From positions 1 to 54,655 of the forward strand of contig PAKZ01000022.1 in the NCBI GenBank assembly GCA_002706335.1: a stretch of 54,655 bases of DNA. Reading direction: 5' to 3'. This DNA comes from Ahrensia sp. (GTDB lineage: Bacteria; Pseudomonadota; Alphaproteobacteria; Rhizobiales; Rhizobiaceae). A program made the position numbers and the translations under genes. The notes beneath the pieces are model-generated. The model was not told where the DNA came from. It worked only from the letters and a program-made list of their open reading frames with translations, and did not search any database. Each line of letters begins with the position of its first letter. The first letter of the stretch is position 1. This document shows positions 23,780-40,430 of this stretch, one piece after another.

Positions 23780-24442
23780 TTACCAATCGTTCGCTTCGCG
23801 CCAAGCGATGAGATCTTCGATCGAGATCAGCTTCAGCATGTGGATGCGGGCGAAGGCGACTAGGTCAGGCAGCCGCGCCATCTCGCCGTTGGGTAGTGCA
23901 ATCTCGCACAAAACGCCGCCGGGAAAGCGTCCGGCCAGGCGTGCCAAATCCAGCGCCGCCTCGGTATGGCCCGGGCGTCCTAACACCCCTTCGGGGTGCG
24001 CTCGCAGCGGAAAGACGTGGCCGGGACGGCTGAAATCGGCAGGTATCCGTCCTTCGTCGGCAAGCGCACGGATCGTCCGAGCGCGGTCAGAGACCGAAAT
24101 CCCCGTCGTCGTGCCGTCGCGTAAGTCGCAGGTGACGGTGAAGCCGGTGCTGAGATACTCAGTGTTGTTAGGCACCATCTGCGGCAAGTCTAACTGCTGG
24201 AGCCGTTCGGCCGAGAGCGAAACGCAGATCAATCCGCGACCCTCGGTCGCCATGAAGTTGATGTCGGCAGCGGTGACTGCGTCAGCAGCCATGATCAGGT
24301 CGCCCTCATTCTCACGATCAGCGTCATCCACCACGATCACCATCTCGCCATGCGCGATGGCTATGATCGCGTCCTCAACCCGATCCAGGACGATATCGCC
24401 ACCTAGTAGGTCCAATGCGGGCAGCTTCAGCATGGAATTCAT
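23780..24442 (-). CDS. ribB: 3,4-dihydroxy-2-butanone 4-phosphate synthase
   Basis: This makes the four-carbon precursor of riboflavin from ribulose 5-phosphate. The RibB motifs are all present: VDDADRENEGDLIMAADAV (catalytic acidic loop), FMATEGRGLICVSL, and GHVFPLRAHPEGVLGRPGHTEAA (catalytic His and substrate-binding Thr). The 220-residue length fits a monofunctional RibB without the GTP cyclohydrolase II half; an upstream ATG would add about 20 residues and looks unnatural. It is the last gene of the long catabolic operon, 60 bp after an SDR gene, and not near other rib genes. Its location suggests it boosts FMN/FAD supply for the flavin enzymes upstream. Confidence 0.95.
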   Translation of the reverse strand: MNSMLKLPALDLLGGDIVLDRVEDAIIAIAHGEMVIVVDDADRENEGDLIMAADAVTAADINFMATEGRGLICVSLSAERLQQLDLPQMVPNNTEYLSTGFTVTCDLRDGTTTGISVSDRARTIRALADEGRIPADFSRPGHVFPLRAHPEGVLGRPGHTEAALDLARLAGRFPGGVLCEIALPNGEMARLPDLVAFARIHMLKLISIEDLIAWREANDW

Positions 24443-24502
24443 CGGGTTACCTAGGCTGTTCTCGCGCCGCTGAAATATACATGCGTCAGTCTGTCCTTCC
24501 AA

Positions 24503-25228
24503 TCAGATTGCCCGCACCAGACCACCATCCACCAAAAGGCCCTGGCCGGCGATGTATCCCGCCTCGTCCGACAACAGGAAGGCTATGGTGGCGCCCAGTT
24601 CATCCTCGACCGCCGCGAAGCGGCCCATCGGGATCTTGGCCAGTGCCTCAGGCGTTGCAGGATAATTGTCGACGAAGCCCGGAAGCACCGCGTTGATCCG
24701 CCAGCCCTCGCCACCATGGCGGGCGACGCAGAGCTTGAGGAACCCCGACAGCGCCGCGCGAAACACGGCCGACAAAGGATAGGTCAGTTCCGGTTCGCGC
24801 GCCGCATAGGTCGATACCGACACGGCCGCTCCCGATTTTTGCCACGCGAAAACCGGCGCAATATGCCGCATCGCCCGAACCGTGGGCATCAACACGATCT
24901 CCATCGCCTTGTGCCAGTCCTCGTCGGGGATTTGCAGGATCTCGCCCTTGGGTGGGTGGCCGGTATTGATTACTGCGCCGTCGATCCGGCCGTAGCGCTC
25001 AAGCGCCGTCGCGACCAGCCGCACCATGTCGTCTTCATTCGTCACGTCTCCCCGCAATGCCGTCGCGCCCAATTCCGCTGCCGCAGCCTCGATCTTTTCT
25101 GAACGAGACATGAGCACGAGAGACCAGCCGCGCGTGGCCAACGCCCGGGCGGCTCCCAGCCCAATGCCCGAGCTTGCAGCCGTCACCACGGCCACCTTGC
25201 CCCGCAGCTTTTCCCCGTCTTTGGTCAT
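24503..25228 (-). CDS. SDR-family oxidoreductase with altered catalytic motif
   Basis: The 241-residue Rossmann protein begins with KVAVVTAASSGIGLGAARALA (TGxxxGxG variant with A-S-S-G-I-G). It retains an NTGHP in place of NNAG and ends with a typical C-terminal GQGLLVDGG. At the active-site region the sequence is STYAAREPELTYPLSAVFRAALSGF, so the canonical YxxxK is not present: Lys is replaced by Arg and Tyr is displaced. Such divergent SDRs exist as a subgroup; the reaction may still be dehydrogenation of a catabolic alcohol or CoA-ester. It lies between the MBL hydrolase and ribB genes. Confidence 0.85.
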   Translation of the reverse strand: MTKDGEKLRGKVAVVTAASSGIGLGAARALATRGWSLVLMSRSEKIEAAAAELGATALRGDVTNEDDMVRLVATALERYGRIDGAVINTGHPPKGEILQIPDEDWHKAMEIVLMPTVRAMRHIAPVFAWQKSGAAVSVSTYAAREPELTYPLSAVFRAALSGFLKLCVARHGGEGWRINAVLPGFVDNYPATPEALAKIPMGRFAAVEDELGATIAFLLSDEAGYIAGQGLLVDGGLVRAI

Positions 25229-25291
25229 ATCGTCCTAGATTGCCATCTCTTTTTTACGCGGCAACACCTGCCGCGCCCGTCACATGTTTGC

Positions 25292-26170
25292 TCAGATGTC
25301 AGGCATCCACAAATCGGGCACATATTCATACCCTGATCCATTGCGCACCACGTGGCCAAAGCCCGGAAACTCCAGGTGCATTCCCCCGATGGCCAAGCGG
25401 TCCGCAGAAATACGTTTAAGTATACGATGCCGCGTTTCGCGGGCGAGGTCGACGTCCACGTCAAAGGCCAGGCCAACGTCGGGGTTGGCGATCTGAACCA
25501 CTGGCACGTGGGTAATGTCGCCCCATATCAACAACTCTTCGTTGCCACTGGACAGGTGATACCCGCTGTGGCCGGGGGTATGGCCCGGCAACGCTTCGCG
25601 GCGCAAACCGGGGATTACCTCTTCCTCTCCGATTGCATGCCACCGGTCACCATAGGCCTTGCGTAACTGCGGCGCATAGGAATTGACCTGTTCCGAAACG
25701 CCCACCTCGTCGGTTGGCGGCTCACCCCCCAGCCAGTGGTTTTCTTCGTCAATCGACAGGAACACCTCTGCCTTTGGAAAGACCGCGTTCCCGTCGTCGT
25801 CCAGCATCCCGCCAGCGTGGTCGGCGTGGATATGCGTCAGCGCGATCCGGTCGATCTGGTCGGGGGTCACGCCAACCGCTGCAAGATTGTCAACCACCTT
25901 GCCCAGCGTCGGCCCCATCAGATTGCGCGCGCCGGTATCCACCAACGTGCGCGAACCGCCATGCTCTATCAGATATGCGCCGATGGTCACATGCGGATCG
26001 CCCGGGCGAAAACGGCTTTCCAAGGTTTTCTTGACCTCGTCGGGCGCCATGCCCACCATTACTCCGGGCGGCACCGGAACGATACCGTCGTTTATCGCCG
26101 TGACCACGAAGTCGCCCACGCGCTTGCGGTAAATGCCCGGCACCTGCCGGATCGTCGGGTCGTCAGTCAT
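25292..26170 (-). CDS. Metallo-beta-lactamase-fold hydrolase
   Basis: The 292-residue protein has the MBL zinc motif HIHADHAGG (HxHxDH) at about residues 112-120, preceded by LVDTGARNLMGP. The further metal ligands are in GHTPGHSGYH and WGDITHVP. Overall it resembles the methyl-parathion-hydrolase / AHL-lactonase-like branch. The first His in the zinc motif is followed by Ile-His-Ala-Asp-His as in active enzymes. In this operon, after an LLM monooxygenase, a lactonase or esterase role is the attractive guess. It is separated by 201 bp from the LLM gene, which leaves room for an internal promoter. Confidence 0.88.
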   Translation of the reverse strand: MTDDPTIRQVPGIYRKRVGDFVVTAINDGIVPVPPGVMVGMAPDEVKKTLESRFRPGDPHVTIGAYLIEHGGSRTLVDTGARNLMGPTLGKVVDNLAAVGVTPDQIDRIALTHIHADHAGGMLDDDGNAVFPKAEVFLSIDEENHWLGGEPPTDEVGVSEQVNSYAPQLRKAYGDRWHAIGEEEVIPGLRREALPGHTPGHSGYHLSSGNEELLIWGDITHVPVVQIANPDVGLAFDVDVDLARETRHRILKRISADRLAIGGMHLEFPGFGHVVRNGSGYEYVPDLWMPDI

Positions 26171-26371
26171 TTGCGTCTCCTCCGCGTTGTGTCCTTGGAT
26201 CGGTGCGACGACACAGAGTCCCCGCGACCGCGAGATTTGAAAGAACCAATCCGCCTGACCTGGGCGGTCGCACCGGAACGATGTATTCGTTGTCGTTCGG
26301 CCAATCTCTCCGTGCCGCCCGCGCCACCATTTGGACAGCGGCGCGGCGCGTTCATATTAGGGTGACCCGTT

Positions 26372-27643
26372 TCAGAACGGCCGGTCGCGCCAAGTGGGCT
26401 CGCTCAGTTCCTTGCGGAAGGTCGGCTTTCGCTGTTCGAGCTTGATCCCGATCTTCGGCAACACCTTCTCCACCAGCAGCTCATTGGAACGCAGCAGCTT
26501 GTCTACCGGGCCCGGACCGACGCCGATCCAGGGCACGATCATCTCCATGCCGTAGGTCTCGATCATCTTTTCCATTTTGCTGGCCACGGTATCCACGGAC
26601 CCGGCGATCGCAAAACCGCGGTTCACCATCGATTCATAAGTGTTGGGGATCGGTCCTTCTTCGCCTGGGCGCCGCAGTGCTTCGTTGAAACCAAAGTGAT
26701 CATGCCAGCCGGTCCAGATATAGCCCAACGCATCCTTGCCGATGTTAAAGGCCTCTTGGTCGGTATCCGCCACAACGATGTCGCGGAAATGGCCAACGTT
26801 CTGACCCCACTTGATGTTCGGATCGCGTTGCTGCGCCTCGGCGTGGTAGGCGTCGAGGCACATCCGCAGCGTCTCGTCGATGGGCGTGAAGACAATCGGC
26901 CACCCCCCCTCCTGCGCAGCCCATTTCATCGTGTTGGGACTGAGAGTGAAGGGTACCATCAATTCGATGGTCGAAGGATCCTGAAGGGTGTTCGGCGCGA
27001 TGCCGATCTTTTTCAGGATATCGCCCTCGACCATGTCCGGTGCCATTTTCTTGGTCTTCGGGTGATCCCAGACAACATTGTCTGGTGGCACTTGCCAATG
27101 CTTGCCCTTGAACGAGAAGGTCCTGTTGTTCAGAAGCCCCTTGATCACGTCATAGGATTCCTGGAAAAGTTCCCGATTGCGCGCGTCGTTGGTGGCGTAG
27201 TCGGGGTCGGTCGCAAAGGTTGCCACGGCGCCGTTCTTCTGGCCGATCGTGGTAACGTGCCTCGCCTGATAGCCGCGCGCGAAGCCGGTGAACATGCGTC
27301 CTTCTGAGAACTGGTCCAGCATCGCCAGATCCTCGGCGACGAGGATCGGATTGCGCGCGGGAAGTACGGTAGCCATCTGGCCGATGCGAATGCGATTGGT
27401 GAAGCCGGCTGCCCAGGCGCCCAGCAGGATAGGGTTATTGGAAATCTCCAGCCCTTCCAGATGAAAGTGGTGCTCTGAAAAAGCCACGAAGTCGAACCCG
27501 AGGTCCTCCAGTTGCTTGATCACACGCGCATGTTCGTTCAGCGAACGCTGGTAGTAGGTTGGATTGGCTCCCGGATATTGCTCGGACTTCAACTCGTCGT
27601 GTTTGGCGGCCGAAGCCGGCAGCAGAAATGCTCCAAATCGCAT
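26372..27643 (-). CDS. LLM-class flavin-dependent monooxygenase
   Basis: The ATG at 27643 (MRFGAFLLPA) gives 423 aa; an upstream in-frame ATG would add an unnatural leader. The protein shows the bacterial-luciferase-like TIM-barrel pattern: DLGFDFVAFSEHHFHLEGLEISNNPILLGAWAAGFTNRIRIGQMATVLP and LDQFSEGRMFTGFARGYQARH. Such enzymes use reduced FMN delivered by a separate reductase, and an NADPH:FMN reductase gene lies just upstream. Members carry out Baeyer-Villiger oxidation of cyclic ketones, limonene or alkane oxidation and similar steps. The substrate cannot be deduced. Confidence 0.92.
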   Translation of the reverse strand: MRFGAFLLPASAAKHDELKSEQYPGANPTYYQRSLNEHARVIKQLEDLGFDFVAFSEHHFHLEGLEISNNPILLGAWAAGFTNRIRIGQMATVLPARNPILVAEDLAMLDQFSEGRMFTGFARGYQARHVTTIGQKNGAVATFATDPDYATNDARNRELFQESYDVIKGLLNNRTFSFKGKHWQVPPDNVVWDHPKTKKMAPDMVEGDILKKIGIAPNTLQDPSTIELMVPFTLSPNTMKWAAQEGGWPIVFTPIDETLRMCLDAYHAEAQQRDPNIKWGQNVGHFRDIVVADTDQEAFNIGKDALGYIWTGWHDHFGFNEALRRPGEEGPIPNTYESMVNRGFAIAGSVDTVASKMEKMIETYGMEMIVPWIGVGPGPVDKLLRSNELLVEKVLPKIGIKLEQRKPTFRKELSEPTWRDRPF

Positions 27644-27732
27644 AGTGTCTTCTCCTCTAGTGATTCGCTTACCAGCGCCTGGACGCTGTCCTCCCGACGT
27701 CCCCGTCCGCCAAAGCGGAGCGGGCAGGTCCT

Positions 27733-28305
27733 TCAACTCTTGTGCATTGCAAACTCCGTTACCTGATCGGCGATCGTGTCGAGTTGGAAGCGCACTGCGG
27801 CATCCACACAGACACCCGCGTCATTGAAGACATTCTGGGTTGAATTGATCATTCCGCCCATCGGCGTCGGCCATCCGCGCAGCGCATGGACAATCGCCCG
27901 AAGCGCGGTCAGCGTCTGGCCAGTAGCCTGCCAGCCGGCGCCGCAGGCGACACAGCCCACCGGCAGCCCGTCGAAATACACCCGCGGATCGCTGTTCATG
28001 TCCTCGGTGTAGTCGAGAGCGTTCTTTACCAACCCCGAGACTGAGCCGTGGTAGGCGGGCGAGCACAGAACGAGCCCATCGCATTCCCGCATCAGCGCGA
28101 TCATCCTTTGCGCGGCCTCGCTGCGCTCGGGAAACTCAGGCGAATAAAGCGGCAGGTCCAGCGCTTCTCCAGTGATCAGCGCGGTCCGTGCTCCGCGGTC
28201 CTCGGCGCGTGCTAGCACGTGTCCCAATGCCCTCTGCCCGGTCGATTTATGACGCAAAGTTCCACCGACCCCCAGAATCAGGGGGCGGGCCGTTCGGGTC
28301 TTCAT
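27733..28305 (-). CDS. NADPH-dependent FMN reductase family protein
   Basis: The 190-residue flavodoxin-like protein starts with ILGVGGTLRHKSTGQRAL (the FMN phosphate-binding loop, G-x-R-x-x-S/T). It contains LCSPAYHGSVSGLVKNALDY, the family signature (P.Y.GS.pG.lKnalD), and ends with a typical alpha-helix. It supplies FMNH2. The location directly before the LLM monooxygenase (89 bp) indicates that the two act as a two-component system. Confidence 0.92.
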   Translation of the reverse strand: MKTRTARPLILGVGGTLRHKSTGQRALGHVLARAEDRGARTALITGEALDLPLYSPEFPERSEAAQRMIALMRECDGLVLCSPAYHGSVSGLVKNALDYTEDMNSDPRVYFDGLPVGCVACGAGWQATGQTLTALRAIVHALRGWPTPMGGMINSTQNVFNDAGVCVDAAVRFQLDTIADQVTEFAMHKS

Positions 28306-28443: not shown

Positions 28444-29478
28444 TTATTTGGCGCCTCGTCCTGTTCGTTGCAGATCCAGCGCAACGTCCACGATCATGTC
28501 CTCCTGCCCGCCGACCATTTTGCGACGTCCCAACTCGACCAGGATTTCGCGTGAATCGAGTCCGTAGGCGTTTGCGGCGGTTTCGGCGTGACGCAAAAAG
28601 CTGGAATAGACGCCGGTGTATCCCAGCGCGATTGTCTCGCGGTCCACCTGCACCGGCCTGTCCTGGATCGGGCGCACTAGACGGTCGGCCGCGTCCATGA
28701 GCGCGAAAAGATCGCAGCCGTGGTCCCAACCCGAACGCTCGGCGACGGCCACGAAGGCTTCGATCGGCGTGTTGCCGGCCCCTGCGCCCATGCCGGCCAA
28801 AGAGGCGTCCACCCGGAACGCGCCCTGTTCGACCGCAACAACCGAATTGGCCACCGCAAGCGACAGGTTCTGATGCGCATGAATGCCCACCTGGGTTTCC
28901 GGCTTCAGCACTTCGCGATAGGCGTGGATACGGTCCCGCGCGCCATCCATCAGCAGCGCACCGGCCGAGTCGGTGACATAGACGCAATGGGCACCATAGC
29001 TTTCCATCAACAACGCCTGTTCGGCCAATTCCTTGGGCCCCAACATGTGCGCCATCATCAAAAAACCCGACACATCCATGCCGATCTTGCAGGCATAGGC
29101 GATATGCTGGGCAGCGACATCGGCTTCGGTGCAGTGAGTGGCCACCCGGACCGAGCGGACCCCGGCGTCATAGGCGGCCTGAAGGTCGTGAATCGTGCCG
29201 ATTCCGGGTACAAGAAGGGCTGTCAGTTTGGCGGTTTCAAGTTTGTCGGCGACTGCGGCGATCCATTCCAGATCAGTGTGCCGACCAAAACCGTAGGCAA
29301 AGCTCGACCCGGCCAGGCCGTCGCCGTGGCTGAGTTCGATCGCGGCCACGCCGGCGCGGTCAAGCGCCGTGGCGATGTCGATGCATTGATCCAAAGTGTA
29401 CCGGTGGCGGATCGCATGCATCCCGTCGCGCAGGGTTACGTCCTGCACATAGAGCTTGGTCTTGTCCGAATCGGTCAT
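28444..29478 (-). CDS. mhpE: 4-hydroxy-2-oxovalerate aldolase
   Basis: The 344-residue class II pyruvate aldolase splits 4-hydroxy-2-oxovalerate into pyruvate and acetaldehyde. Features are [12 protein letters not shown] at the N-terminus (catalytic Arg, metal-binding Asp and His20-type residues), ELSHGDGL, and the metal ligand motif [11 protein letters not shown], plus [20 protein letters not shown]. DmpG/MhpE enzymes channel acetaldehyde to the partner dehydrogenase encoded immediately upstream. A ribosome site GGGAG precedes the ATG at 29478, which lies inside the 3' end of the dehydrogenase frame. Confidence 0.96.
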
Positions 29479-30421
29479 CTCCCGCGGCCTCCGTTAGTGT
29501 CCGCCGCGCCAGCCGTTCGGCGGTTTTCAGCGCAGCAGAGGTCATGATGTCCAGATTGCCGGCATATTTCGGAAGGTAATGACCCGCGCCTTCGACCTCG
29601 AGAAACACGCTGACCTTCAGCCCGGTGGCGTGATCGTCCACGCCGGGGATGCGCACCGCGGCGTTGTTGCCGATTGTCTCGAACTGGATTTCCTGTTTCA
29701 GCCGATAACCGGGCACGTAGTCCTGCACCTCGGCGATCATCGCCTCGACCGAGCGGCGCACCGCCTCACGATCAGTCGTTTTTGCCAAACAATAAACCGT
29801 GTCCCGCATGATCAGGGGCGGCTCGGCGGGGTTGAGAATAATCACCGCCTTGCCCTTGGAGGCGCCGCCGACCTCGCAGATCGCCCGCGATGTGGTCTCG
29901 GTGAATTCGTCGATATTGGCGCGGGTGCCCGGCCCGGCCGAGCGTGACGAGATCGAGGCGACGATCTCCGCATAGCTCACTTCGGCGACTCGCGACACTG
30001 CTGCCACGATCGGGATCGTAGCCTGGCCGCCACAAGTTACCATATTGATATTGGTCTGTTCCAGGTGATTGTCCATGTTCACCACGGGAACAACGTAAGG
30101 GCCAATGGCTGCCGGAGTCAGGTCGATCATGATCTTGCTCGCGTCCCGGACAATCTGGTCATTGCGCTTGTGTGCGCCTGCGGAGGTCGCATCGAACACA
30201 ATGCCAATCTCGGGCCACACGGGCAGCCGGGTCAGCCCCTCGATGCCTTCGTGAGTAGACGCGACGCCAAGCCGGGTGGCACGGGACAGACCATCGCTGT
30301 CCGGGTCGATCCCGACCATGGCGCCCATCTTCAGAACATCCGAAGTCCTCATGATCTTGATCATCAGATCGGTCCCGATATTGCCCGAACCGATGATTGC
30401 AACCTTGATCTTACCGGTCAT
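29360..30421 (-). CDS. mhpF: Acetaldehyde dehydrogenase (acylating)
   Basis: This converts acetaldehyde and CoA to acetyl-CoA with NAD+. The ATG at 30421 ([18 protein letters not shown], Rossmann GxGxxG) overlaps the hydratase stop. The catalytic Cys130 sits in [12 protein letters not shown]. Family members are about 300-320 aa and end near ALKTAERLA. Here the frame runs on for some 40 residues over the first 119 bp of the aldolase gene, ending without family similarity. A 1-nt shift near 29480 would bring a TGA overlapping the aldolase ATG into frame, so this is either a real extension or a small frameshift or sequencing error. Confidence 0.93.
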
Positions 30422-31215
30422 GCCCCTGCCCTTCCGTCGTCGAAATTCACCTGGATTGGCGAGAACCCGGAAATTTCGGCCAGATACACCTCGCCCGGTC
30501 CCACCGGGACCATCGGCCCGAAGGCCCCCGACATCACGATGTCGCCTTCTGCCAGTGGTTGGCCCAGTTCCGCCATGCGGCGTGCCAGCCACAATGTCGC
30601 GTTGAGCGGGCTTCCCATGCAATCTACGCCCAGCCCGCGCGAAACGACGCGGCCATTGCACGACAGGATGCCGCCGCAGAGCCGCAGGTCGAGATCGGTC
30701 AGCCGACGCGCGCCCAGGCCCAGAAGAAACCCCCCGCCCGACGCGTTGTCGGCCACGGTGTCGACCAGCTTGATGTCCCAGTCGCGTATCGCGGTGTCCA
30801 CCACTTCAAGCGCCGGCACCGCATAGGCGACGCGGCGGATCAGCTCGGCCATCGGCGCCTGGGGATCGTCGAAGTCGCGGTCCATCACGAAGGCCACTTC
30901 CAATTCGGCCTTTGGCTGCATGAAGCGGCCGGTGTCGACCACCTCGCCCTCGGTGAAGAAATAGTCGGCCCAAAGCATCCCGTAATCGGGTTGGTCGATG
31001 CCCATCTGGGCCTGAACCGCTGGCGAGGTCAGCCCGATCTTGCAACCCACAAACCGTCGTCCCTGGCCCAGCCAAATCTTGTTCGCGGCGTCCTGCACCG
31101 CATAGGCGTCCTCAACCGTGTCCAGCCCATGACTTTCACGCAGAGGGGGGATCTGTTTCAGCTCAGTCCGGGCGCCCACCAGCGCAACGGCCATGTCGTC
31201 GATGCGCCCGCTCAT
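30418..31215 (-). CDS. mhpD: 2-hydroxypentadienoate (2-oxopent-4-enoate) hydratase
   Basis: This adds water to 2-hydroxypenta-2,4-dienoate to give 4-hydroxy-2-oxovalerate. The 265-residue protein matches MhpD through [60 protein letters not shown] and [15 protein letters not shown]. The [13 protein letters not shown] version separates it from the decarboxylase branch (compare the paralogue at 39406). The true start is ATG 31215, overlapping the flavin reductase stop by 4 bp; it overlaps mhpF by 4 bp as well. Confidence 0.94.
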
Positions 31216-31763
31216 GCGGTGCCCCGGGGCTGGCGGGTTTCTTCGTCTATCGGCAGATAGTCGCCCCGCCAGAGCAGAAGCGGCGGCTCGGGAAAGGTGC
31301 GGGCGCGCAACACGCGCCCCACCAGAATCGTGTGGTCGCCGCCGGGCAAGGTAGTTTCGAGGCAGCATTCGATCCAGGCCGCAGCACCTTTGATCAAGGG
31401 CATCTCGGCCAGCCCCTCCTCAAGATCGAGATCGGCGAAGCGGTCGACATCGGCGGTCGCGAAACGGCGCGACACCTCTTCCTGATCGGCCGCCAGAATA
31501 TTCACCGCAAAGCGTTGCGCACTCAGGAAGATCGGCAACGAATAGGCTTCGTTGCGCAAACTCCATTGAACCAGCGGCGGGTCGAGCGACAATGAGGAGA
31601 ACGACGTGGCCGTGACACCATATTGCCCCTCCTCGTCATCATGCGTCGTCATCACCGTGATGCCGGTGGCGAAGCGTCCCAGCGCCTCGCGGAACGCTGT
31701 CGGCGCCAGGGGTGGCGTCGTTTTGGCACTGACAAAGCGGGTTGCCTGAGTGTGCATCGTCAT
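31212..31763 (-). CDS. Flavin reductase (HpaC-like) of a two-component monooxygenase
   Basis: The 183-residue split-barrel protein has the flavin reductase signature [41 protein letters not shown], followed by [18 protein letters not shown] and the NAD-contact region in the C-terminal half (ending LLLWRGDYL). It delivers FADH2 to the HpaB-like oxygenase encoded two genes upstream, from which it is separated by the C-C hydrolase gene. Start at ATG 31763; an alternative two residues later is equivalent. Confidence 0.93.
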   Translation of the reverse strand: [183 protein letters not shown]

Positions 31764-31831
31764 GACTTTGCTCTCTATGTCTTAGGGTCGGTTGGGCCGA
31801 AGAGACCGCGGATTTCCGTTCCTGGCCGCGT

Positions 31832-32704
31832 TTAGCGGCCCAGAAGGAAGTCGATGTGAATCCGGTTGAACGTTTCGGGATCTTCGAACTGAGGCCAGTG
31901 GCCGCATTCGTTCATCACCTCGAAACGCGCATTGGGAATCGCATCCGCGATCTTGCGACCCTCCTCGGGCGCAGCGGTGGGATCGTGCGACGTCCACAGA
32001 ACCAAGGTCGGCGTATTGATCTTGGCACTGTCCTCGGAGCTGAACATGTTCCGCTGACGGATGTCCATTTCCTGCAGGCACAGTATGCGTTCCATGATGT
32101 CGGCATTGCCGGGCTGTGAATAGATTGCGCGGCGCACCTCGACGAGGTCGTCATTTACCTTGGAATGGTCGTGCATCAGAAATTCTAGCCGTGTACGAAT
32201 CCGTTCTGGAGACGGATCGTTCACCGCTTCCATGGTCAGTCGTTTGATGCGCTCCATGACCTCCGGATAGGCTGTCCATCCGCCGGCGGTGTTCAGCACC
32301 AGGCGGTCCACCCACTCGGGATGGTGGACACCCACCCAACCGGCCACCCAGCCGCCCAGGGATTCGCCGGAGATATGTGCCTTTTCATATCCAAGCGCCT
32401 TGATCACATCGATCACGTGCTTGGCATAGTCGGCGATTTCGTAGTCCAGCTTCGGCTTGTCGCTCCAACCGTGGCCGACCAGGTCGATTGCATAGGTGCG
32501 AAAATGCTCGGCATGGGCGGCCAGATTGCGGCTGAAGGCCTCGGCGTGGCCGCCGGTGCCGTGGATCAGGATCAGCAGCGGCTTGTCTTCGTCGCCGGCC
32601 GCCAGATAGCGGGTGCGGACTCCGCCCGCATCCAGATAGCCTTGGGTGAAAGGCACCCGTGTCAGGTCGGTCCAGATGGACTGATGTTGGGACGTCGTTG
32701 TCAT
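31832..32704 (-). CDS. meta-Cleavage-product alpha/beta hydrolase (MhpC-like)
   Basis: The ATG at 32704 has a GGAG ribosome site; the 290-residue protein has the oxyanion HGTGGHAEAF, nucleophile Ser in ISGESLGGWVAG, acid Asp in WTSHDPT and catalytic His in NECGHWPQFE. This is the triad of C-C bond hydrolases such as MhpC and BphD, which split the ring-opened dienoic acid into 2-hydroxypentadienoate and a short acid. It sits between the HpaB-like oxygenase and the flavin reductase genes, as part of one pathway. Confidence 0.93.
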   Translation of the reverse strand: MTTTSQHQSIWTDLTRVPFTQGYLDAGGVRTRYLAAGDEDKPLLILIHGTGGHAEAFSRNLAAHAEHFRTYAIDLVGHGWSDKPKLDYEIADYAKHVIDVIKALGYEKAHISGESLGGWVAGWVGVHHPEWVDRLVLNTAGGWTAYPEVMERIKRLTMEAVNDPSPERIRTRLEFLMHDHSKVNDDLVEVRRAIYSQPGNADIMERILCLQEMDIRQRNMFSSEDSAKINTPTLVLWTSHDPTAAPEEGRKIADAIPNARFEVMNECGHWPQFEDPETFNRIHIDFLLGR

Positions 32705-32721
32705 CTTATTCTCCGCGTTTT

Positions 32722-34215
32722 TCACTCTGCTGCATCGCGCTGCAGGCTGCGCGCGGGCTCGGGATCACCAGCCAGCGCCAGCGCATCGTTTACGAGGCGC
32801 ATCATCTCGTCGTCCTGCACCTGAAGGTAATTCGAGGCGGTGGTCCGGATCGGATCGCCCGCATAGTAACGCTCGTATTGCAGCAGCCGCGAGCCAAACG
32901 CCTCGCCGGAAAGATCCCAGGCAAGCTTGAAAAGCCGCGCCCGATCAACCGACGACATTCCGCCTGCGCCCTGATAATACAGGTCAGTGTCTTCAGACAG
33001 TTCGGGCACGGTGAATTCGGCGCCCGAGGGCATCATCATGAACCCGCCGGCGGCAATGGTCTGAATGGTTTCTACCAGCTTCGGATAAGCCGTGGGCAGA
33101 AACGTGCGCAGCGCCTGCAAGGGGGCCAGAGCCGGACGTACCGTATCATAGCCGGTTTGCTCGCATTCCACTTCGGAGCGCACAAGACCACTCTTGAGAA
33201 ACTCGATCCCGTTCAGGGCCTCGCCCAGCATCCGCTGCACGTGCAGGAATTGGTCCGCACCGATCGACCGCGCCACCGCGATCGCCACGCCCACGCCGAA
33301 CTGCATCTTCACCAGCGCACGGGTGTTGGTCTGATGCGCGGTATAGTTGCGCAAAGCCGTTTCGGTATACAGCGCATTGTTCAGCGCGACGTCGCGATAC
33401 ATGAACACCCTTTCCCACGGAACGAAGACATTGTTGAAGATCAGAAGCGAATCGTTCTCTTCGAAATTGTTCGACAGCGGATGGTCGAAATCGGACCGCG
33501 CGCCTTCGAGCGTATAAGGCTCACGGCAGATCTGGCGCACGCCCGGGTCCGAAACCTTTACCGCGAAGGACAGCGCGTGATCGGCGTCGCTCTCCGGTAT
33601 GCCGGGCAGGCAATACATTAGCATCTCGTCCGCAACCGCGCCCAGCGTAGCCACCATCCGCGCACCCTGCACATAGATGCCCTCGTCAGTTTCCTTCACC
33701 ACCCGCATGTGCAGGTTTTCCTGTTCGGAGGACGATTTGGTCCGGTCGTTTTGCGGCGAAATTAGCGCATGGCTGAGGAACAGGTCGTTGTCCCTGATGT
33801 ACTTGTAATAGTTGAGGATGTTCTCGGCATACCGGTTTCCGCCGCGGCCGAAGACCTCGCGCGCTTCTGCAAAGGCAAGCAGGCTGGCATTGAGAAAATC
33901 CGGGGAGCGGCCCATCAAGCCGAAGTTCATGGAGGCCCAGAGATAATAGGCCTCGCGGCGCCGGCGGAGGTCATCGGCGGTTTTGGCGGGCATGAAGGCC
34001 AATCCGGCGCGCTGACCGGTTTCAGGAACTTCATAGGTCAGTATATCGCGGGTAGCCGGATCCACCTGCGCTTCATAGAGACGTGCCAACTGGCGCACGA
34101 TCCGCGAAAAGGCGGGATGCGTGGTGACATCCTCGACTCGCTCGCCGTTTATCCAAACGTCGCGAGAGTTGGCTTTCAACCCGTCTATAAATTGCTGTCC
34201 GTTGCGGACTCCCAT
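32722..34215 (-). CDS. HpaB-type FADH2-dependent aromatic monooxygenase
   Basis: The ATG at 34215 (MGVRNGQQFIDGLKANSRDVWINGERVEDVTTHPAF) follows an AGGAG site; 497 aa, similar to the 4-hydroxyphenylacetate 3-monooxygenase large subunit (usually 480-520 aa). The FAD-stabilising region EQENLHMRVV, the SHALISPQNDR loop and VFVPWERVFMYRDV are typical. It hydroxylates phenols ortho to the hydroxyl. In E. coli-type mhp operons this step is done by MhpA, a single-component FAD enzyme; here a two-component system fills the position. The substrate need not be 3-hydroxyphenylpropionate. Confidence 0.93.
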   Translation of the reverse strand: MGVRNGQQFIDGLKANSRDVWINGERVEDVTTHPAFSRIVRQLARLYEAQVDPATRDILTYEVPETGQRAGLAFMPAKTADDLRRRREAYYLWASMNFGLMGRSPDFLNASLLAFAEAREVFGRGGNRYAENILNYYKYIRDNDLFLSHALISPQNDRTKSSSEQENLHMRVVKETDEGIYVQGARMVATLGAVADEMLMYCLPGIPESDADHALSFAVKVSDPGVRQICREPYTLEGARSDFDHPLSNNFEENDSLLIFNNVFVPWERVFMYRDVALNNALYTETALRNYTAHQTNTRALVKMQFGVGVAIAVARSIGADQFLHVQRMLGEALNGIEFLKSGLVRSEVECEQTGYDTVRPALAPLQALRTFLPTAYPKLVETIQTIAAGGFMMMPSGAEFTVPELSEDTDLYYQGAGGMSSVDRARLFKLAWDLSGEAFGSRLLQYERYYAGDPIRTTASNYLQVQDDEMMRLVNDALALAGDPEPARSLQRDAAE

Positions 34216-34297
34216 GTCCCACTCCTGCTTTTTGCGTCGGCTCAGGCCCTGCCCGGACTTTGCCAGGTGCGCCCACCGTCTGGTTGAATTCGTGGCG

Positions 34298-35230
34298 TCA
34301 GTTCGGCCTGGCCGACATGATGCCCATGCCCGTAAGCCATTCTGGAATGGGTTCGTAAAACAGCATCTCGGAGCTGTAGCCCTGCCCCAATGCCGCCAGG
34401 GCGGCGATCCAGCAGCGGACCTCATGTCCGCCTCTGCCGCCGGTCCGTGAAATCGTCTCGTCATCGATGAGGTCGAGCGGCGAAAGGTCACCGGACGTGA
34501 ATGCATCAAGCAGCATCTTGTCCCAATCCGTATCAAGCGGCAGCAGCTTCGACTGCCCGGAGGCATAGCGCGGCCCTTCTCCGATCACGTTAATCTGTCG
34601 CGCCGTCCGTGCCGAATGGGGCAACGGGCCGCCTTCAATCAAGCGCTGGCGCACTTCGGGCGTGGCCGTCTCCAGCGAAGGGATCGGCGGATCATGCGAC
34701 AAGCCGCCGGACCCGATAATCAGCACCTTTTCCGGACATGCCGCCGCCCAGCGTCCCACCGCCTCGCCGAGCGCGCGGACCCGCGCCATCGTCGGGCGAG
34801 GCGCCAGCGCGCAGTTAACGAAAATAGGGATCATGCGCGTCAGCGGTACCTTGGACGACAGCAGTTCGATCGGCTGCGCCCCACCGTGATCCACCTCTAT
34901 GCGGTACGAGATCGCGACATCCACGCCCTCTTTCAGCGTGTGCTCTGCGCAGGACCAAGCCCGGCTCTCGGGAATGTCGAGCTTGCCCGCTACAGTGCCG
35001 AAATCACCCACCGAGACGCCCTCAATACCGATGCAAAACGACGGCAGGAGCTTGTAGAAGAAGCCATTCACATGATCGGGGTGGAATACAACCACCAGAT
35101 CTGGATCAGCCTCAGCCACGTAGTCGGCCGCCTTCTCGATCGCCTTCCAGAACCTCTTCTCGGCGTCCGGCGCCGCGCGATTGCGATCCATGATTGGGCT
35201 GTGCGACATGCAGACACTTCCGACGATCAT
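34298..35230 (-). CDS. mhpB: 2,3-dihydroxyphenylpropionate 1,2-dioxygenase-like extradiol dioxygenase
   Basis: The 310-residue LigB-type (class III) extradiol enzyme is about the size of MhpB (314). Motifs are MSHSPIMDRN near the N-terminus (first Fe ligand His), VVFHPDHVNGFFYKLLPSFCIG, CAEHTLKEGVDVAISYRIEVDHGG, and IGSGGLSHDPPIPS. It opens the catechol ring next to the hydroxyls. It is the first gene of the long leftward operon and is divergent from the IclR-type regulator. Confidence 0.94.
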   Translation of the reverse strand: MIVGSVCMSHSPIMDRNRAAPDAEKRFWKAIEKAADYVAEADPDLVVVFHPDHVNGFFYKLLPSFCIGIEGVSVGDFGTVAGKLDIPESRAWSCAEHTLKEGVDVAISYRIEVDHGGAQPIELLSSKVPLTRMIPIFVNCALAPRPTMARVRALGEAVGRWAAACPEKVLIIGSGGLSHDPPIPSLETATPEVRQRLIEGGPLPHSARTARQINVIGEGPRYASGQSKLLPLDTDWDKMLLDAFTSGDLSPLDLIDDETISRTGGRGGHEVRCWIAALAALGQGYSSEMLFYEPIPEWLTGMGIMSARPN

Positions 35231-35402: not shown

Positions 35403-36206
35403 ATGGCCTCACATCCTACGAACGAGATTGGCTCGCCCTACAAGGAGATCCGTGCGGTGACGCGAGCGTTCGACCTACTCGAGGCAGCGGGAGACTTGGG
35501 GTGGGCGAAAGTGGGTGAACTCGCCACCTATACCGGAATAGACCGGGGAACGCTCTACCGGTTGATCCACACGCTTGAGATGAAAGGCTACTTGGTGCGG
35601 CGCGCCGAGGACGGCGCAGTTTCGCTCACTGAGCGCATCCTTCAGCTCGGCGACGGCGTGCGCCACGAGGACGTCGCCACCCAAGTGATGTCGCAAGCGC
35701 TGCGCGGACTTACCGAACAATTGATGTGGCCCAGCGATTTCGCCACGCTAGTGGCCGGTCGCATGGTGATTCAGGCCTCCAGTCACAAGTTCAGCCCGGT
35801 GTCCGTCCACCGCAGGCTGGTAGGCAAAACGCGGCCGGTTCTGCGTTCGGCGTTGGGGCTTGCCTATCTGGGCTCGCTAAGCCGCGGTGACCTGTCTCGC
35901 ACCCTCGACGTGATGCGCCGGATCGGCACGGTCAGTAGGGAGGACCTAGCTATCCTGCCCAATATCGAGCGACGACTCGAAGAGATGCACCAACGCGGCT
36001 ATGCCTTCTCAGTGGGGCTGGTCGAGAATAATATCAGTGCCATCGCCCTGCCTGTGAGACTCGGGCGAAGGCCAATCGGCGCCGTAAATATCGCCTTTTT
36101 CCGCAGCGCCATGTCGCCTGCCGAAGCCGCTTCAACATGCCTGAAGCCACTACGCGAGTGCATTGTTCGAGCCGAGGCGGCCATGCTAGCGCAAACGCAG
36201 CTCTGA
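35403..36206 (+). CDS. IclR-family regulator, MhpR-like
   Basis: The 267-residue protein has an N-terminal winged helix (about 15-75: EIRAVTRAFDLLEAAGDLGWAKVGELATYTGIDRGTLYRLIHTLEMKGYLVR) and an IclR effector domain (about 90-260). The motif TRPVLRSALGLAYLG is typical of MhpR/PcaR-like aromatic regulators. It is divergent from the mhp-type operon and precedes a TRAP transporter, so it probably activates both when the aromatic acid or an intermediate is present. Confidence 0.92.
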   Translation: MASHPTNEIGSPYKEIRAVTRAFDLLEAAGDLGWAKVGELATYTGIDRGTLYRLIHTLEMKGYLVRRAEDGAVSLTERILQLGDGVRHEDVATQVMSQALRGLTEQLMWPSDFATLVAGRMVIQASSHKFSPVSVHRRLVGKTRPVLRSALGLAYLGSLSRGDLSRTLDVMRRIGTVSREDLAILPNIERRLEEMHQRGYAFSVGLVENNISAIALPVRLGRRPIGAVNIAFFRSAMSPAEAASTCLKPLRECIVRAEAAMLAQTQL

Positions 36207-36394
36207 ATTCGGTATTCCGCAAGTGTTCACTAGGTGAATGCTTTCCATATTCGCTTTGGAAAGCGGATCAGGAACCTCTAGGCTTTCAAGGATGCACGAC
36301 CATATGTCGCGCTGGGAAGCTTACTGTCGTCCGCGCGGCGGCCGTCATTGCGAGACAGGCGCTCTGCGCTACAGCAAGGTTAGGGAGAATCTTC

Positions 36395-37420
36395 ATGTTT
36401 GTTGCTTCGATTGTCCGCCGATTCATGGCGGCAATTCTTTACGTAGCCCTGTCGGCCACGGCCGTTTCCCCGACCCTCGCGCAGGAGATCACGCTGCGCT
36501 TCGCCAGCTTTCCCGGCCCCACAAACTTTCTGAACACCAGCCTCTTCGCCCCCTGGTTTGAGAAGATCGAGGACGCGTCGGGCGGCAAGCTCAAGGTGGA
36601 ATTCCTCACCGGCGGTTCGGTCGCTACGCCGAACGAAGTCTTCGACTCGGTAGAGGCTGGTCTCATCGATATCGGCTGGAGTATCACCTCATACAATCCG
36701 GGCCGCTTCCTCGCCGCCGGCGTCACCGAGCTTCCGCTCTTGGCTACCAGCTCCGCCGAGGCCTCTGCGGCTATCGCAGCGCTCTATGAAGATGGCCTCA
36801 TCGAGGGGTTTGAGTCCGTGAAGGTGATCGGCATCGGCACCGCCGATATCGCGCGTTTGCATCACTCCGGCGAGATCACCGGATTGGACGACTTCAAGGG
36901 CGCCAAGGTGCGCGCGGCGGGCAGCGTCCTCTCGGCCATGATCACTGCCATTGGCGCCACGCCGGTTGGGCTGCCTGCTCCGGCCATTGCCGAGGCACTC
37001 TCCAAAAACGTGGTCGATGCGGCCGCCGCCGACTGGTTTGCCGTCGAAGGGTTTTCGCTGCTTGACGTCACCCTCGGCCATGTCGACATTCCGCTCGGTA
37101 CAACGCCGATGTATATCGTCATGAATCAGACTACATACGATCGCCTGCCGCCGGATATCCAGAAGGTTTTCGACGACAATCCGCCGTCCGCCTTCGCCGC
37201 CTTTTGGGGTACGGGTCTTGAAACCGAGAGCAATCGTGTCCGCGCCGTGGTGGAATCGACGCCAGGCCATCACATCATCGTGCCCAGCGAAGCGGAACTG
37301 GCCACATGGTCGGCGGCGGCCGAGAAGGTGATCGCCGCGTGGGTCGAAGACACACCCAACGGAGCCGCCGTGCTGGACGCATATCGGGCGGAAATCGAAG
37401 CCTGGCGCAATAGTCAGTAA
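36395..37420 (+). CDS. TRAP transporter solute-binding protein (DctP-like)
   Basis: The ATG at 36395 has an AGGGAG site; 341 aa with a signal peptide (MFVASIVRRFMAAILYVALSATAVSPTLAQ). The mature part follows the DctP pattern: SGGKLKVEFLTGGSV, VEAGLIDIGWSITSYNPGRF, LDDFKGAKVRAAGSV and VDAAAADWFAVEGF. The conserved Arg in KVRAAG binds the carboxylate of the ligand. It supplies ligand to the DctQM fusion encoded 14 bp downstream. The ligand is an organic acid, probably the aromatic or alicyclic acid degraded by this locus. Confidence 0.93.
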   Translation: MFVASIVRRFMAAILYVALSATAVSPTLAQEITLRFASFPGPTNFLNTSLFAPWFEKIEDASGGKLKVEFLTGGSVATPNEVFDSVEAGLIDIGWSITSYNPGRFLAAGVTELPLLATSSAEASAAIAALYEDGLIEGFESVKVIGIGTADIARLHHSGEITGLDDFKGAKVRAAGSVLSAMITAIGATPVGLPAPAIAEALSKNVVDAAAADWFAVEGFSLLDVTLGHVDIPLGTTPMYIVMNQTTYDRLPPDIQKVFDDNPPSAFAAFWGTGLETESNRVRAVVESTPGHHIIVPSEAELATWSAAAEKVIAAWVEDTPNGAAVLDAYRAEIEAWRNSQ

Positions 37421-37434
37421 CTCAGGGGGAGCGA

Positions 37435-39339
37435 ATGTCTACCGCCACAGCCAACGTTATCGAGGTGGCTGGCGGTGGGCTGCGCGGTTACGCGGCCCGC
37501 CTGCTGGCCAACGCGGCGGGCCTCATGCTGCTCGGATTGTCGATCGCTTTCACCCTGGACGTGCTGCTACGCTGGAGCGTCTCGGCACCGATCCTGGGCC
37601 TGTACGAGGTTGCGGAACTTTGCTTCGCAGCGGTCATGGCGCTGTCGCTGGTCTGGACCAACACGCGGCAATCGCACGTCGCGATGGGCATACTGAGCCA
37701 GATCACCGGTCGTGAGGCCGCGCCGCGCCTGGTCGCGGCGGGCCTCGGTCTTGTCGTGTCCTGCCTTTTTGCATGGTTTCTTGTCCGATATGCCATCGGG
37801 AAAGCGGCGCATGGCGAAACGACGTTGGTTCTGGGACTGCCCAAGGCCCCTTTCTGGGGCGCAGCCGCCGTGGCGATCGGGCTGGCCGCGCTGGCGCAAC
37901 TTGCGATCTTCGTATCGGAACTCACCTCTTATCTTGGGAACCCGGGCAAAAGGCTGCGCGATATGGTGCCGCCCACACTCATGGTGGCCGCCGCGTTCAC
38001 GGTCATGCTGGGCACTGCGTATTTCACACCCACTCTTGGGGCGGGGCCAAAGATCCTGGCCTCCTTCGTTATTCTTTACCTTCTGGCACTGGCGCATGTC
38101 CCGATTGGCTTGGCGTTGGTGATAGCCGGCCTTGGTGCTGTATTGCTTCAGATGGGGTTTCGTCCGGCCCTGCTCATCGGCACGAACAACCTGACCGGCA
38201 GCCTGTCCAGCGTGGATCTGGCGGCGGTGCCACTGTTTCTGATGATGGGAAATCTCGCGGTGGCGGCAGGGTTCGCTGACGACATGTTCGCCGCGGCAAC
38301 CGCGATCTTCGGCCGTCTGCGCGGCGGCCATGCACTGGCTGCTGTCATGGGCTGCGCCGGGTTCGGCGCCATCAGCGGTTCCTCCGTGGCCACCACGGCC
38401 ACGCTTGGAGGTGTTGCATTTCGCGAAATGCAGTCGCGCGGCTATGCACCGGGGCTCTCGACCGGCAGTATCGCAGCCGGCGGCACCCTAGGCGCTCTGA
38501 TCCCGCCTTCGGTGGTTCTGATCATCTACTGCGTCATTTCCGAGATTTCGATCGCCAAGGCATTCATGGCCGCTATTGTTCCGGGGATGCTGGCCCTGGC
38601 GCTCTACGTCGTGTCGGTCCTTGTCCAGGTGCGGCTGCGTCCCGATCTGGCGCCAGCGCCCGACGGTTCGGAACCTTTCGCGCCAATCCGGGCGCTGCGC
38701 ATTGCCTGGCGGCCGATCGCTCTGTTCCTGGCTGTGCTGGGGGGGCTTTATGGCGGCGTCTTCACAGTGCAGGAGGCCGCAGCGGTCGGCGCCGGCTTCT
38801 CTTTCGTGGCTTGGCTCATGTCGGGCCGCGCCTCCGTCGGCGGCCTGTTCGAGGCCCTGCGCGACGCCGCGGGCACCAGCGCCGGGCTTTACCTTCTGAT
38901 CATCGGCGCCAATATCTTCGGCAGCCATCTCAACTTTACGGGTATGGCCCAGGCTCTGGAAGCGGTGATCAACCCCGATACCCTGCCCGCCTGGGTGGTT
39001 CTGACCTTGCTGGCCATCATGTATCTGGTGCTGGGAAGTATCTTCGACACGGTGGCCGCTGTGGTCATAACCGTGCCTTTTGTGCTGCCCGTTATCCTGT
39101 CAATGGGATTCGATCCGATCTGGTGGGGTATCGTCACCCTCACGCTGGTCGAGATCGGTATGATAACCCCGCCAATCGGAATGAACGTGTTCGTAATGAA
39201 GGCCGTCGTCGGCAATCGCGTCAAGCTTTCCACCATCTTTGGCGGGGTTTTGCCGTTTCTGGCCGCCGACTTGTTCCGCATGGTGTTGCTTATTGCCTTT
39301 CCGGCAATCTCGCTTTGGCTTGGCGGGGGGTTGAGTTGA
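37435..39339 (+). CDS. TRAP transporter fused small/large permease (DctQM)
   Basis: The 634-residue protein fuses a DctQ domain (about 1-170, four helices, with WSVSAPILGLYEVAELCFAAVMALSLVWTNTRQSHVAMG) to a DctM domain (about 205-634) with the usual twelve or so helices. DctM signatures are NLTGSLSSVDLAAVPLFLMMGNLAVAAGFAD, GFGAISGSSVATTATLGGVAFREMQSRGYAPGLSTGSIAAGGTLGALIPPS and EIGMITPPIGMNVFVMKAVVG. It moves organic acids with sodium or proton symport. The other TRAP locus in this window encodes Q and M separately. Confidence 0.94.
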   Translation: MSTATANVIEVAGGGLRGYAARLLANAAGLMLLGLSIAFTLDVLLRWSVSAPILGLYEVAELCFAAVMALSLVWTNTRQSHVAMGILSQITGREAAPRLVAAGLGLVVSCLFAWFLVRYAIGKAAHGETTLVLGLPKAPFWGAAAVAIGLAALAQLAIFVSELTSYLGNPGKRLRDMVPPTLMVAAAFTVMLGTAYFTPTLGAGPKILASFVILYLLALAHVPIGLALVIAGLGAVLLQMGFRPALLIGTNNLTGSLSSVDLAAVPLFLMMGNLAVAAGFADDMFAAATAIFGRLRGGHALAAVMGCAGFGAISGSSVATTATLGGVAFREMQSRGYAPGLSTGSIAAGGTLGALIPPSVVLIIYCVISEISIAKAFMAAIVPGMLALALYVVSVLVQVRLRPDLAPAPDGSEPFAPIRALRIAWRPIALFLAVLGGLYGGVFTVQEAAAVGAGFSFVAWLMSGRASVGGLFEALRDAAGTSAGLYLLIIGANIFGSHLNFTGMAQALEAVINPDTLPAWVVLTLLAIMYLVLGSIFDTVAAVVITVPFVLPVILSMGFDPIWWGIVTLTLVEIGMITPPIGMNVFVMKAVVGNRVKLSTIFGGVLPFLAADLFRMVLLIAFPAISLWLGGGLS

Positions 39340-39405
39340 TCGTCCCGACCGCCTTCTTTGGCTGGAATTTCCAGTCACATCAGTCAATCGAACGGAGCCC
39401 ACCCC

Positions 39406-40214: not shown

Positions 40215-40430
40215 ATGCCCATAGCAGAAATCCTGATCTTTGAGGGCCGTACCGACGATCAGAAGCGCGAGATCATGCGCGAGGTCACAGATGCTCTTGC
40301 GCGATCCATGGACGCTGAACCCGAACGCATCCGCGTGATCCTGAAAGAGATACCGACGAATCATTTTTCAGTCGCTGGGGTGTCCATCGCAGACAGCCGC
40401 GCGGCTGGACAAACCCCAGGAAGGAAGTGA
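40215..40430 (+). CDS. 4-Oxalocrotonate tautomerase-family enzyme
   Basis: The 71-residue protein begins MPIAEILIFEGRTDDQKREIMREVTDALARSM; removal of Met exposes the catalytic Pro1. The spacing of IRVILKEIPTNHFSVAGVS fits 4-OT (Arg39-type and the C-terminal beta-strand). The hexameric enzyme tautomerises 2-hydroxymuconate-type products. It is placed between the XylI-like decarboxylase and an alpha/beta hydrolase, 23 bp and 7 bp away. No hydroxymuconic semialdehyde dehydrogenase gene is present nearby. Confidence 0.93.
   Translation: MPIAEILIFEGRTDDQKREIMREVTDALARSMDAEPERIRVILKEIPTNHFSVAGVSIADSRAAGQTPGRK

Follow-up and report, generated by a model that had tools for sequence, protein, structure and literature searches.

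What task could a group of flavin-related genes perform at the end of an aromatic ring-cleavage operon? The question is raised by a 54,655-nt stretch of Ahrensia sp. DNA (positions 1 to 54,655 of contig PAKZ01000022.1, assembly GCA_002706335.1), referred to here as the window. Five genes, all on the minus strand within 23780-28305, encode in 5' to 3' order an FMN reductase, a luciferase-like monooxygenase (LLM), a metallo-β-lactamase-fold (MBL) hydrolase, a short-chain dehydrogenase/reductase (SDR) and RibB; these families, assigned earlier from the sequence alone, were all confirmed by matches to family models. We infer the reactions of the five products, and their substrate, from gene families, gene order and the company in which the genes recur. 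With a probability of roughly 0.6, the five genes would form an upper pathway feeding the adjacent HpaB-LigB operon, in which a type II Baeyer-Villiger-like LLM and a lactonase together open an aryl ketone.

Within the five-gene part, intergenic distances are 60-201 nt, and sites resembling GGAGG or GAGGAG precede the ATG codons of the FMN reductase, LLM and MBL genes. Upstream on the same strand follow, in order, genes for LigB, HpaB, an α/β hydrolase, a flavin reductase, a hydratase, an acetaldehyde dehydrogenase and DmpG, the latter separated from the FMN reductase gene by 138 nt. A promoter and terminator scan was uninformative, its counts of 2 and 6 lying below the shuffle means of 3.6 and 10.3. 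The earlier note had termed the upstream genes an mhp operon, of which the same-strand, mhp-like ring-cleavage operon stands; its hydroxylase, however, is of the HpaB type, and its C-C hydrolase is only 28% identical to E. coli MhpC. Using E. coli MhpA as query, no match was found within the window at E 1e-8, and an orthodox mhp operon was rejected because the hydroxylase is not of the MhpA type.

The association of the LLM with these genes was evaluated in the best 80 of 411 relatives obtained by a contig scan with a five-sequence LLM profile. Thirty-nine of these loci form clade A (L033-L071, at least 53% LLM identity; the window and the Sulfitobacter alexandrii plasmid locus, L017, are not counted), leaving 41 other loci. 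A midpoint-rooted tree of 56 rows, comprising 37 of the 39 clade A loci, L017, the window and 17 chosen other LLMs (15 of the 41 plus L018 and L029), separates clade A from the latter by a 100/100 branch; the duplicate L033 and the frameshifted L065 were left out. Clade A hosts are Alpha- and Gammaproteobacteria, Actinomycetota and one deltaproteobacterial metagenome-assembled genome (MAG). HpaB is found in 31 of the 39 loci, LigB in 30 and the C-C hydrolase in 31, and 33 combine a phenol hydroxylase with a ring-cleavage or C-C hydrolase gene. The remaining six (L037, L038, L039, L064, L068, L071) are interrupted by a contig end: the last HpaB codons are visible there in L038, an FAH-family gene precedes it in L064, and the side of L071 that is not cut extends for 5.4 kb without hydroxylase, ring-cleavage or hydrolase genes. 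L050 and L067 possess HpaB and LigB and lack a close hydrolase. In L061 and L066, HpaB, LigB and the hydrolase give way to an MhpA-like hydroxylase, a protein of the VOC/glyoxalase fold and an FAH protein, a trio that by its predicted functions covers these steps with non-homologous enzymes. Since the constant partners of the LLM are aryl-pathway genes, the group that it opens is suggested to sit on the ring undergoing cleavage afterwards, and the proposed extension of a phenolic pathway to alicyclic or terpenoid side chains has been abandoned for the same reason.

Two further comparisons were uninformative. Mantel correlations of the LLM with HpaB (0.96, n=30), LigB (0.92, n=29) and the hydrolase (0.86, n=30), each reached in 0 of 2000 permutations after dropping sequences below 75% of median length, could be produced by shared ancestry alone. 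Ring_hydroxyl_A genes occur in 8 of 8 genomes searched, counted genome-wide and not by LLM contig. Chance estimates for RibB, based on an assumed 2 copies per 5 Mb, independent loci and, for lineages, an assumed 7 of about 30, were given no weight. Near-copies among the 39 are L033 (of L017) and the three Mesorhizobium loci; the pairs L054/L055, L052/L070 and L056/L057 lie near each other in the tree, and L049 was taken to be the same as the L020 contig, given its matching size and LLM position. Several Pseudonocardia loci (among L040-L048, L068 and L069) hold an additional LLM-like gene with matches of about 27%, and L042, L043, L046 and L047 share a gene cluster that was typed in L042 as isochorismatase family. 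The LLM-bearing MAGs L055 and L062, titled Klebsiella pneumoniae, group with gammaproteobacterial MAGs, and these titles look wrong.

The five-gene set recurs in a few Rhodobacterales and Rhizobiales, the nearest kin of the window LLM being Rhodobacterales. On the S. alexandrii plasmid the same five genes occur in the same order at 81-94% identity, and the locus of Chachezhania antarctica (L033) is 99.8% identical to this plasmid over 21,269 bases, a match between two genera. Further versions were found in Aquicoccus porphyridii, a Roseovarius MAG, Ciceribacter naphthalenivorans (RibB 50% identical and placed after the TRAP transporter genes), a Rhodobacteraceae MAG (interrupted inside the SDR gene) and Mesorhizobium (where nothing between MBL and RibB matches the SDR). 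In L034-L037 a PF13557 gene, absent from the window, lies between LLM and MBL. This recurrence of the order in other Alphaproteobacteria, which the earlier note had proposed to look for, argues that the set is not a chance juxtaposition. An LLM match at E 1e-30 was detected in one other genome among 60 relatives and the Ahrensia genome itself (best 37%); at 1e-70, 7 of 385 genomes of the class matched, the own genome included, one of the others being 62% identical and the remainder 36-38%. These findings indicate that the module is rare and mobile. On L017, TniQ/TniB/Mu-type transposase genes lie on one side and thiamine, pantothenate and NAD biosynthesis genes on the other (2715-6070 and 24035-39103), a region that by gene content is a putative vitamin and catabolism island around the module. 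Mesorhizobium sediminum has three module loci (L038, L039, L065), in some genes of which split matches suggest broken frames.

As in type II Baeyer-Villiger monooxygenases, the LLM has a luciferase-like TIM-barrel oxygenase fold (AlphaFold model, pLDDT 86, pTM 0.88), and a separate reductase is encoded directly upstream, the FMN_red gene, paired with it by gene position only. A profile built from 39 sequences (420 positions) matched 10 solved chains at E 1e-10. Among these, only 3,6-diketocamphane monooxygenase (3,6-DKCMO), about 20% identical to the LLM, has a best stretch covering nearly the whole profile, being aligned in one piece over positions 41-398 (E 8.9e-24). The suggested comparison with diketocamphane enzymes gave a mixed outcome: DKCMO is the longest continuous profile match, a luciferase scores higher in total, and fold ranks do not separate the two. 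In a Foldseek search of the model, similar scores were obtained for 2i7g, RslO1, luciferase and DKCMO, with riboflavin lyase RcaE, SfnG and SsuD at lower rank. Seventeen NCBIfam LLM models matched at E 1e-5, none above its own cut-off. The nitrilotriacetate/EDTA and alkanesulfonate (SsuD) monooxygenases, which the earlier note had named as contrary outcomes, are not among them, nor is DszA, and these types were rejected for the LLM. Its start is probably ATG 27643 rather than the TTG at 27736 that opens the reading frame. Statements on the literature here and below refer to the consulted sections of each source. Few type II Baeyer-Villiger enzymes have been characterized (PMC9836352; PMC12239570), and active-site residues are little conserved in the family (PMC4631483), which makes a residue test impossible. 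An expressed LLM protein has been shown to catalyze Baeyer-Villiger oxidation of progesterone (PMC12239570), and many SAR202 LLMs are predicted to be type II enzymes (PMC5395668).

In line with the lactonase comparison proposed earlier, the MBL protein is assigned to the lactonase/dihydrocoumarin hydrolase family, the history of which is given in PMC8222346; dihydrocoumarin hydrolysis is accordingly a predicted activity. The metal motif is kept, and the best solved matches are organophosphorus hydrolases 4le6 (E 1.5e-62) and 4o98 and MBL hydrolase 7y7u, followed by the reconstructed ancestors 5hif and 6c2c (E 3.8e-56; named lactonase ancestor and dihydrocoumarin hydrolase). The equivalog cut-off of the AidB quorum-quenching lactonase was not reached (205.2 against 360 bits). 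At a threshold of E 1e-15, one further relative, 30% identical, is present in the genome. RibB passes TIGR00506 (225.5 bits, cut-off 177.45) and likely starts at ATG 24442 rather than at the TTG at 24502; the genome contains two RibB matches, this gene and one on contig 18. An FMN reductase homologue with 55% identity lies beside another LLM in genome G040 (L029). The SDR gene is not conserved, with no match in the three Mesorhizobium copies. Hence the proposed order of steps, SDR to LLM to MBL, is kept with the SDR as its weakest member, the conversion of ketone to lactone being a prediction still.

LigB passes NF009910 (356.8 against 291 bits), as does no other gene of the genome, and stays below NF009908 (317.4 against 467) and NF009907 (274.9 against 549). 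Its best solved match is 2,3-dihydroxyphenylpropionate dioxygenase, and its VDHG and GGLSH motifs align with the histidines of MhpB; the roles of the histidines in both motifs are presumed here. HpaB, as a trimmed query, matched the solved 4-hydroxyphenylacetate hydroxylase 2yyg (E 4e-111) and did not reach the cut-off of TIGR02309, 4-hydroxyphenylacetate 3-monooxygenase HpaB-1 (446.5 against 480.2 bits). For the C-C hydrolase, the best solved match is 2-hydroxy-6-oxo-7-methylocta-2,4-dienoate hydrolase.

Taken together, the following route is proposed. The FMN reductase would supply reduced FMN to the LLM, which would add one oxygen beside the carbonyl of an aryl ketone to yield an aryl lactone or ester, and the MBL hydrolase would open this product to a phenol that carries an acid side chain. 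An ortho hydroxyl would then be added by HpaB together with its dedicated flavin reductase, LigB would cleave the resulting 3-substituted catechol, and the α/β hydrolase would release 2-hydroxypentadienoate and the side-chain acid, leaving the hydratase, aldolase and acetylating aldehyde dehydrogenase to complete breakdown. The SDR may form the ketone from an alcohol, and the additional RibB could raise flavin supply. As the actual substrate we tentatively name 1-indanone, a benzo-fused ketone and the most economical candidate, while regarding this choice as doubtful. It would be converted via 3,4-dihydrocoumarin, 3-(2-hydroxyphenyl)propionate and 3-carboxyethylcatechol to succinate, and it fits best because this chain leads to 3-carboxyethylcatechol, the namesake substrate of the LigB family. 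In fluorene degraders, 1-indanone, 2-chromanone and 3-(2-hydroxyphenyl)propionate are recorded as successive metabolites (PMC2672333), and degradation of fluorene via indanone in Arthrobacter F101 is cited in PMC9836352; in the literature consulted, no gene is assigned to the step from 1-indanone to dihydrocoumarin in fluorene breakdown.

The combination of LLM, MBL, RibB and flavin reductase recurs in a second, unrelated gene setting. Among the 41 loci outside clade A, MBL is present in 11, RibB in 8, flavin reductase in 8 and acyl-CoA dehydrogenase in 12, so that the association of LLM, MBL and RibB is repeated in this group and not general. Five Amycolatopsis/Prauserella loci hold LLM, MBL, RibB, flavin reductase and acyl-CoA dehydrogenases. 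A Peribacillus plasmid locus, outside the 41, carries LLM, a lactonase-like MBL, RibB, flavokinase and flavin reductase, with a semialdehyde dehydrogenase above cut-off nearby (798 against 770 bits), as well as an acyl-CoA dehydrogenase that is closest to PimC though far below cut-off (159 against 624); its MBL is nearest the AttM/AiiA lactonases (161 bits, below the 390 cut-off), a branch different from that of the window MBL. Both kinds of locus also contain enoyl-CoA hydratase and an aldehyde dehydrogenase, and HpaB or LigB was not found at the MBL-bearing loci of this group. Such genes are the set to be expected if a cyclic ketone were converted to a lactone, hydrolyzed, oxidized to a diacid and passed to β-oxidation. 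In a wider and similarly speculative proposal, the window would hold a mobile set for the Baeyer-Villiger branch, known from metabolites, that leads from 1-indanol/1-indanone via 3,4-dihydrocoumarin to 3-(2-hydroxyphenyl)propionate, extended to 3-carboxyethylcatechol. At its core would stand a novel LLM clade, coupled in Alphaproteobacteria, Gammaproteobacteria and Actinomycetota to genes for phenol hydroxylases and extradiol enzymes; related LLMs would open alicyclic ketones for β-oxidation with the same LLM-lactonase-RibB kit.

Several observations weigh against the opening of an aryl ketone by this LLM and lactonase, or against 1-indanone as its substrate. Homodimeric luciferase 8cbb has a higher total score against the LLM profile than 3,6-DKCMO (E 5.1e-26, in two pieces), and 2i7g, RslO1 and luciferase rank above DKCMO in the fold search, a ranking that does not discriminate between them. 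The characterized type II enzyme 2,5-DKCMO is inactive on 1-indanone (PMC3222318), and a fluorene review draws the 1-indanone branch to salicylate and not to 3-carboxyethylcatechol (PMC2672333). The C-C hydrolase is not an MhpC orthologue, which argues for a different side chain, and the divergently encoded TRAP transporter suggests that an acid, and not a neutral ketone, is taken up. NF009910 was over cut-off in 0 of 14 control genomes, E. coli included, although mhpB is present in K-12 MG1655; it is therefore not a plain test for MhpB, and the LigB match was taken as family-level evidence. In most clade A loci, the sequence read contains no gene for the proposed lactonase: MBL occurs in 12 of 39, eight of these being the Alphaproteobacterial set (67-93% identity in seven, 41% in the broken L065) and four weak (26-34%), and RibB occurs in 10. 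Within clade A, only the Alphaproteobacterial group has FMN reductase, close-kin MBL and mhpDEF-type genes, and the restriction of MhpD/E/F to these loci means that substrates may differ in the remaining ones. No MBL is seen at 30, and no RibB at 33, of the 41 loci outside clade A. Finally, locus counts are not independent, since the loci share ancestry.

Of the other explanations, the one nearest to an aryl ketone upper pathway assumes that the LLM converts an open-chain aryl ketone or aldehyde to an aryl ester, with the MBL protein acting as aryl esterase. As it overlaps our proposal, the two confidences cannot be added, and we judge it rather unlikely. Methyl parathion hydrolase belongs to the MBL family, and the scarcity of close MBL genes in clade A would be accounted for if another esterase or a labile ester served; the 3-carboxyethyl side chain for which the LigB family is named would, however, be lost if ester cleavage removed it. 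Less probable still is degradation of coumarin, dihydrocoumarin or melilotate, in which an ene-reductase encoded elsewhere would form dihydrocoumarin for hydrolysis by MBL, HpaB and LigB would continue, and the LLM would have a separate role. Both the MBL and LigB families would suit such a route, three Oxidored_FMN (old yellow enzyme family) genes are present in the genome, and in a known hydroxycoumarin cluster an FMN reductase gene accompanies those for a hydroxylase and an extradiol enzyme (PMC7913881). Yet it is the LLM, not MBL, that constantly accompanies HpaB, LigB and the hydrolase; such an oxygenase is not needed for coumarin degradation, and related LLMs pair with MBL where HpaB and LigB were not found.

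An LLM with another two-component activity (cleavage of C-S, C-N or ether bonds, or a riboflavin-lyase-like reaction, with RibB and flavokinase serving flavin metabolism) appears comparably improbable. It draws on the lower-ranked structural matches to RcaE, SfnG and SsuD and on the RibB and flavokinase genes beside the Peribacillus LLM, but no such families were among the NCBIfam matches at E 1e-5, DKCMO gave the longest continuous match, and the ring-cleavage and β-oxidation partners would be left unexplained. The view that the five genes came together by chance, or form a flavin cassette with no link to the ring-cleavage operon, is very hard to sustain: the 138-nt distance downstream of DmpG and the position of RibB on the S. 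alexandrii plasmid, close to genes for thiamine, pantothenate and NAD, would allow it, whereas the same arrangement in two Alphaproteobacterial orders and the linkage of LLM to HpaB/LigB in two phyla oppose it.

The features considered are compiled in Table 1. Past the TRAP genes on the divergent side, DmpH-like, tautomerase and PcaD-like genes (39358-41271, plus strand) are syntenic with the S. alexandrii plasmid and hint at a possible second branch. A minus-strand ORF of 409 aa at 40285-41514 is apparently spurious. A second IclR-TRAP cluster, with a FAD_binding_2 dehydrogenase-like gene and an SDR gene, extends over 42085-48610 and is possibly another catabolic set, and an additional LigB-family gene lies near an NmrA-like gene (2787-3602, minus strand). 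Further candidate substrates are 1-tetralone, open-chain aryl ketones, coumarin and 9-fluorenone; no phthalate route, as needed for 9-fluorenone, was noticed in the window, where no search was aimed at such a route.

Table 1. Coordinates of features in the window (HMM, hidden Markov model match; ORF, open reading frame).
Feature	Position	Strand	Basis
RibB, 3,4-dihydroxy-2-butanone-4-phosphate synthase	23780..24442	-	DHBP_synthase E 9.2e-80
SDR family oxidoreductase, proposed alcohol to ketone step	24503..25228	-	adh_short_C2 E 2.9e-44
MBL-fold hydrolase, methyl parathion hydrolase/dihydrocoumarin hydrolase family	25292..26170	-	Lactamase_B E 2.1e-18; HxHxDH residues 113-118
LLM class monooxygenase, proposed type II Baeyer-Villiger-like	26372..27643	-	Bac_luciferase E 3.2e-36; HMM, profile, model
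NADPH-dependent FMN reductase family, proposed LLM partner	27733..28305	-	FMN_red E 1.3e-24
4-hydroxy-2-oxovalerate aldolase (DmpG/MhpE)	28444..29478	-	69% to E. coli MhpE
Acetaldehyde dehydrogenase (acetylating)	29477..30418, approximate limits	-	66% to E. coli MhpF
2-hydroxypenta-2,4-dienoate hydratase type	30418..31215, approximate limits	-	44% to MhpD
Flavin reductase, HpaC/HsaB type, proposed HpaB partner	31212..31763	-	HMM
α/β hydrolase, meta-cleavage product C-C hydrolase type	31832..32725	-	28% to E. coli MhpC
HpaB-type flavin-dependent phenol hydroxylase	32722..34566 (ORF limits; conserved part from near 34200)	-	HMM
LigB-type extradiol dioxygenase, 3-carboxyethylcatechol 2,3-dioxygenase family	34298..35230	-	HMM, alignment
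IclR-type regulator, divergent	35403..36206	+	HMM
TRAP solute-binding protein	36137..37420 (ORF limits; true start later)	+	HMM
TRAP permease, fused DctQ-DctM	37435..39339	+	HMM
FAH/DmpH-like protein, relation to module uncertain	39358..40191 (ORF limits)	+	homologue typed on L017
4-oxalocrotonate tautomerase-like protein	40215..40430	+	homologue typed on L017
α/β hydrolase, PcaD-like	40438..41271	+	homologue typed on L017

In the titles and abstracts consulted, and in PMC full text under open licence, no description of the present locus was found. A movable operon joining a type II Baeyer-Villiger-like enzyme, its reductase, a lactonase and ring cleavage is a testable candidate, and the set of homologues should be useful for the degradation of oxy-aromatic pollutants and for biocatalysis. 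Among known systems, the diketocamphane monooxygenases of the CAM plasmid likewise combine a TIM-barrel LLM oxygenase with a separate reductase, but the window LLM is distant from them in sequence and is followed by aromatic ring cleavage instead of camphor breakdown. In Sphingobium AntQ-1 an LLM and a hydrolase are induced on anthraquinone; the LLM is proposed to form an aryl lactone, the hydrolase gene is adjacent and catechol pathways are induced, whereas that hydrolase has an α/β fold, not an MBL fold, and the sections consulted name no RibB or HpaB-LigB operon (PMC9836352). The hcd 7-hydroxycoumarin cluster of Pseudomonas mandelii 7HK4 resembles the locus in its hydroxyphenylpropionate-type intermediate, extradiol enzyme and FMN reductase gene (PMC7913881; PMC6222606) and differs in that its acid arises by coumarin reduction rather than a Baeyer-Villiger step, with no LLM or MBL named in the consulted part of PMC7913881. 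Towards the dihydrocoumarin hydrolase/methyl parathion hydrolase family, the window MBL agrees in fold, metal motif and similarity to the reconstructed ancestors, while its function is predicted and its score lies below the AidB equivalog cut-off. The E. coli mhp operon for 3-(3-hydroxyphenyl)propionate, finally, shares LigB/MhpB (40% identity), the hydratase (44%), the acetaldehyde dehydrogenase (66%) and the aldolase (69%) with the window, which in turn has HpaB for MhpA, a TRAP transporter for MhpT and the five extra genes.

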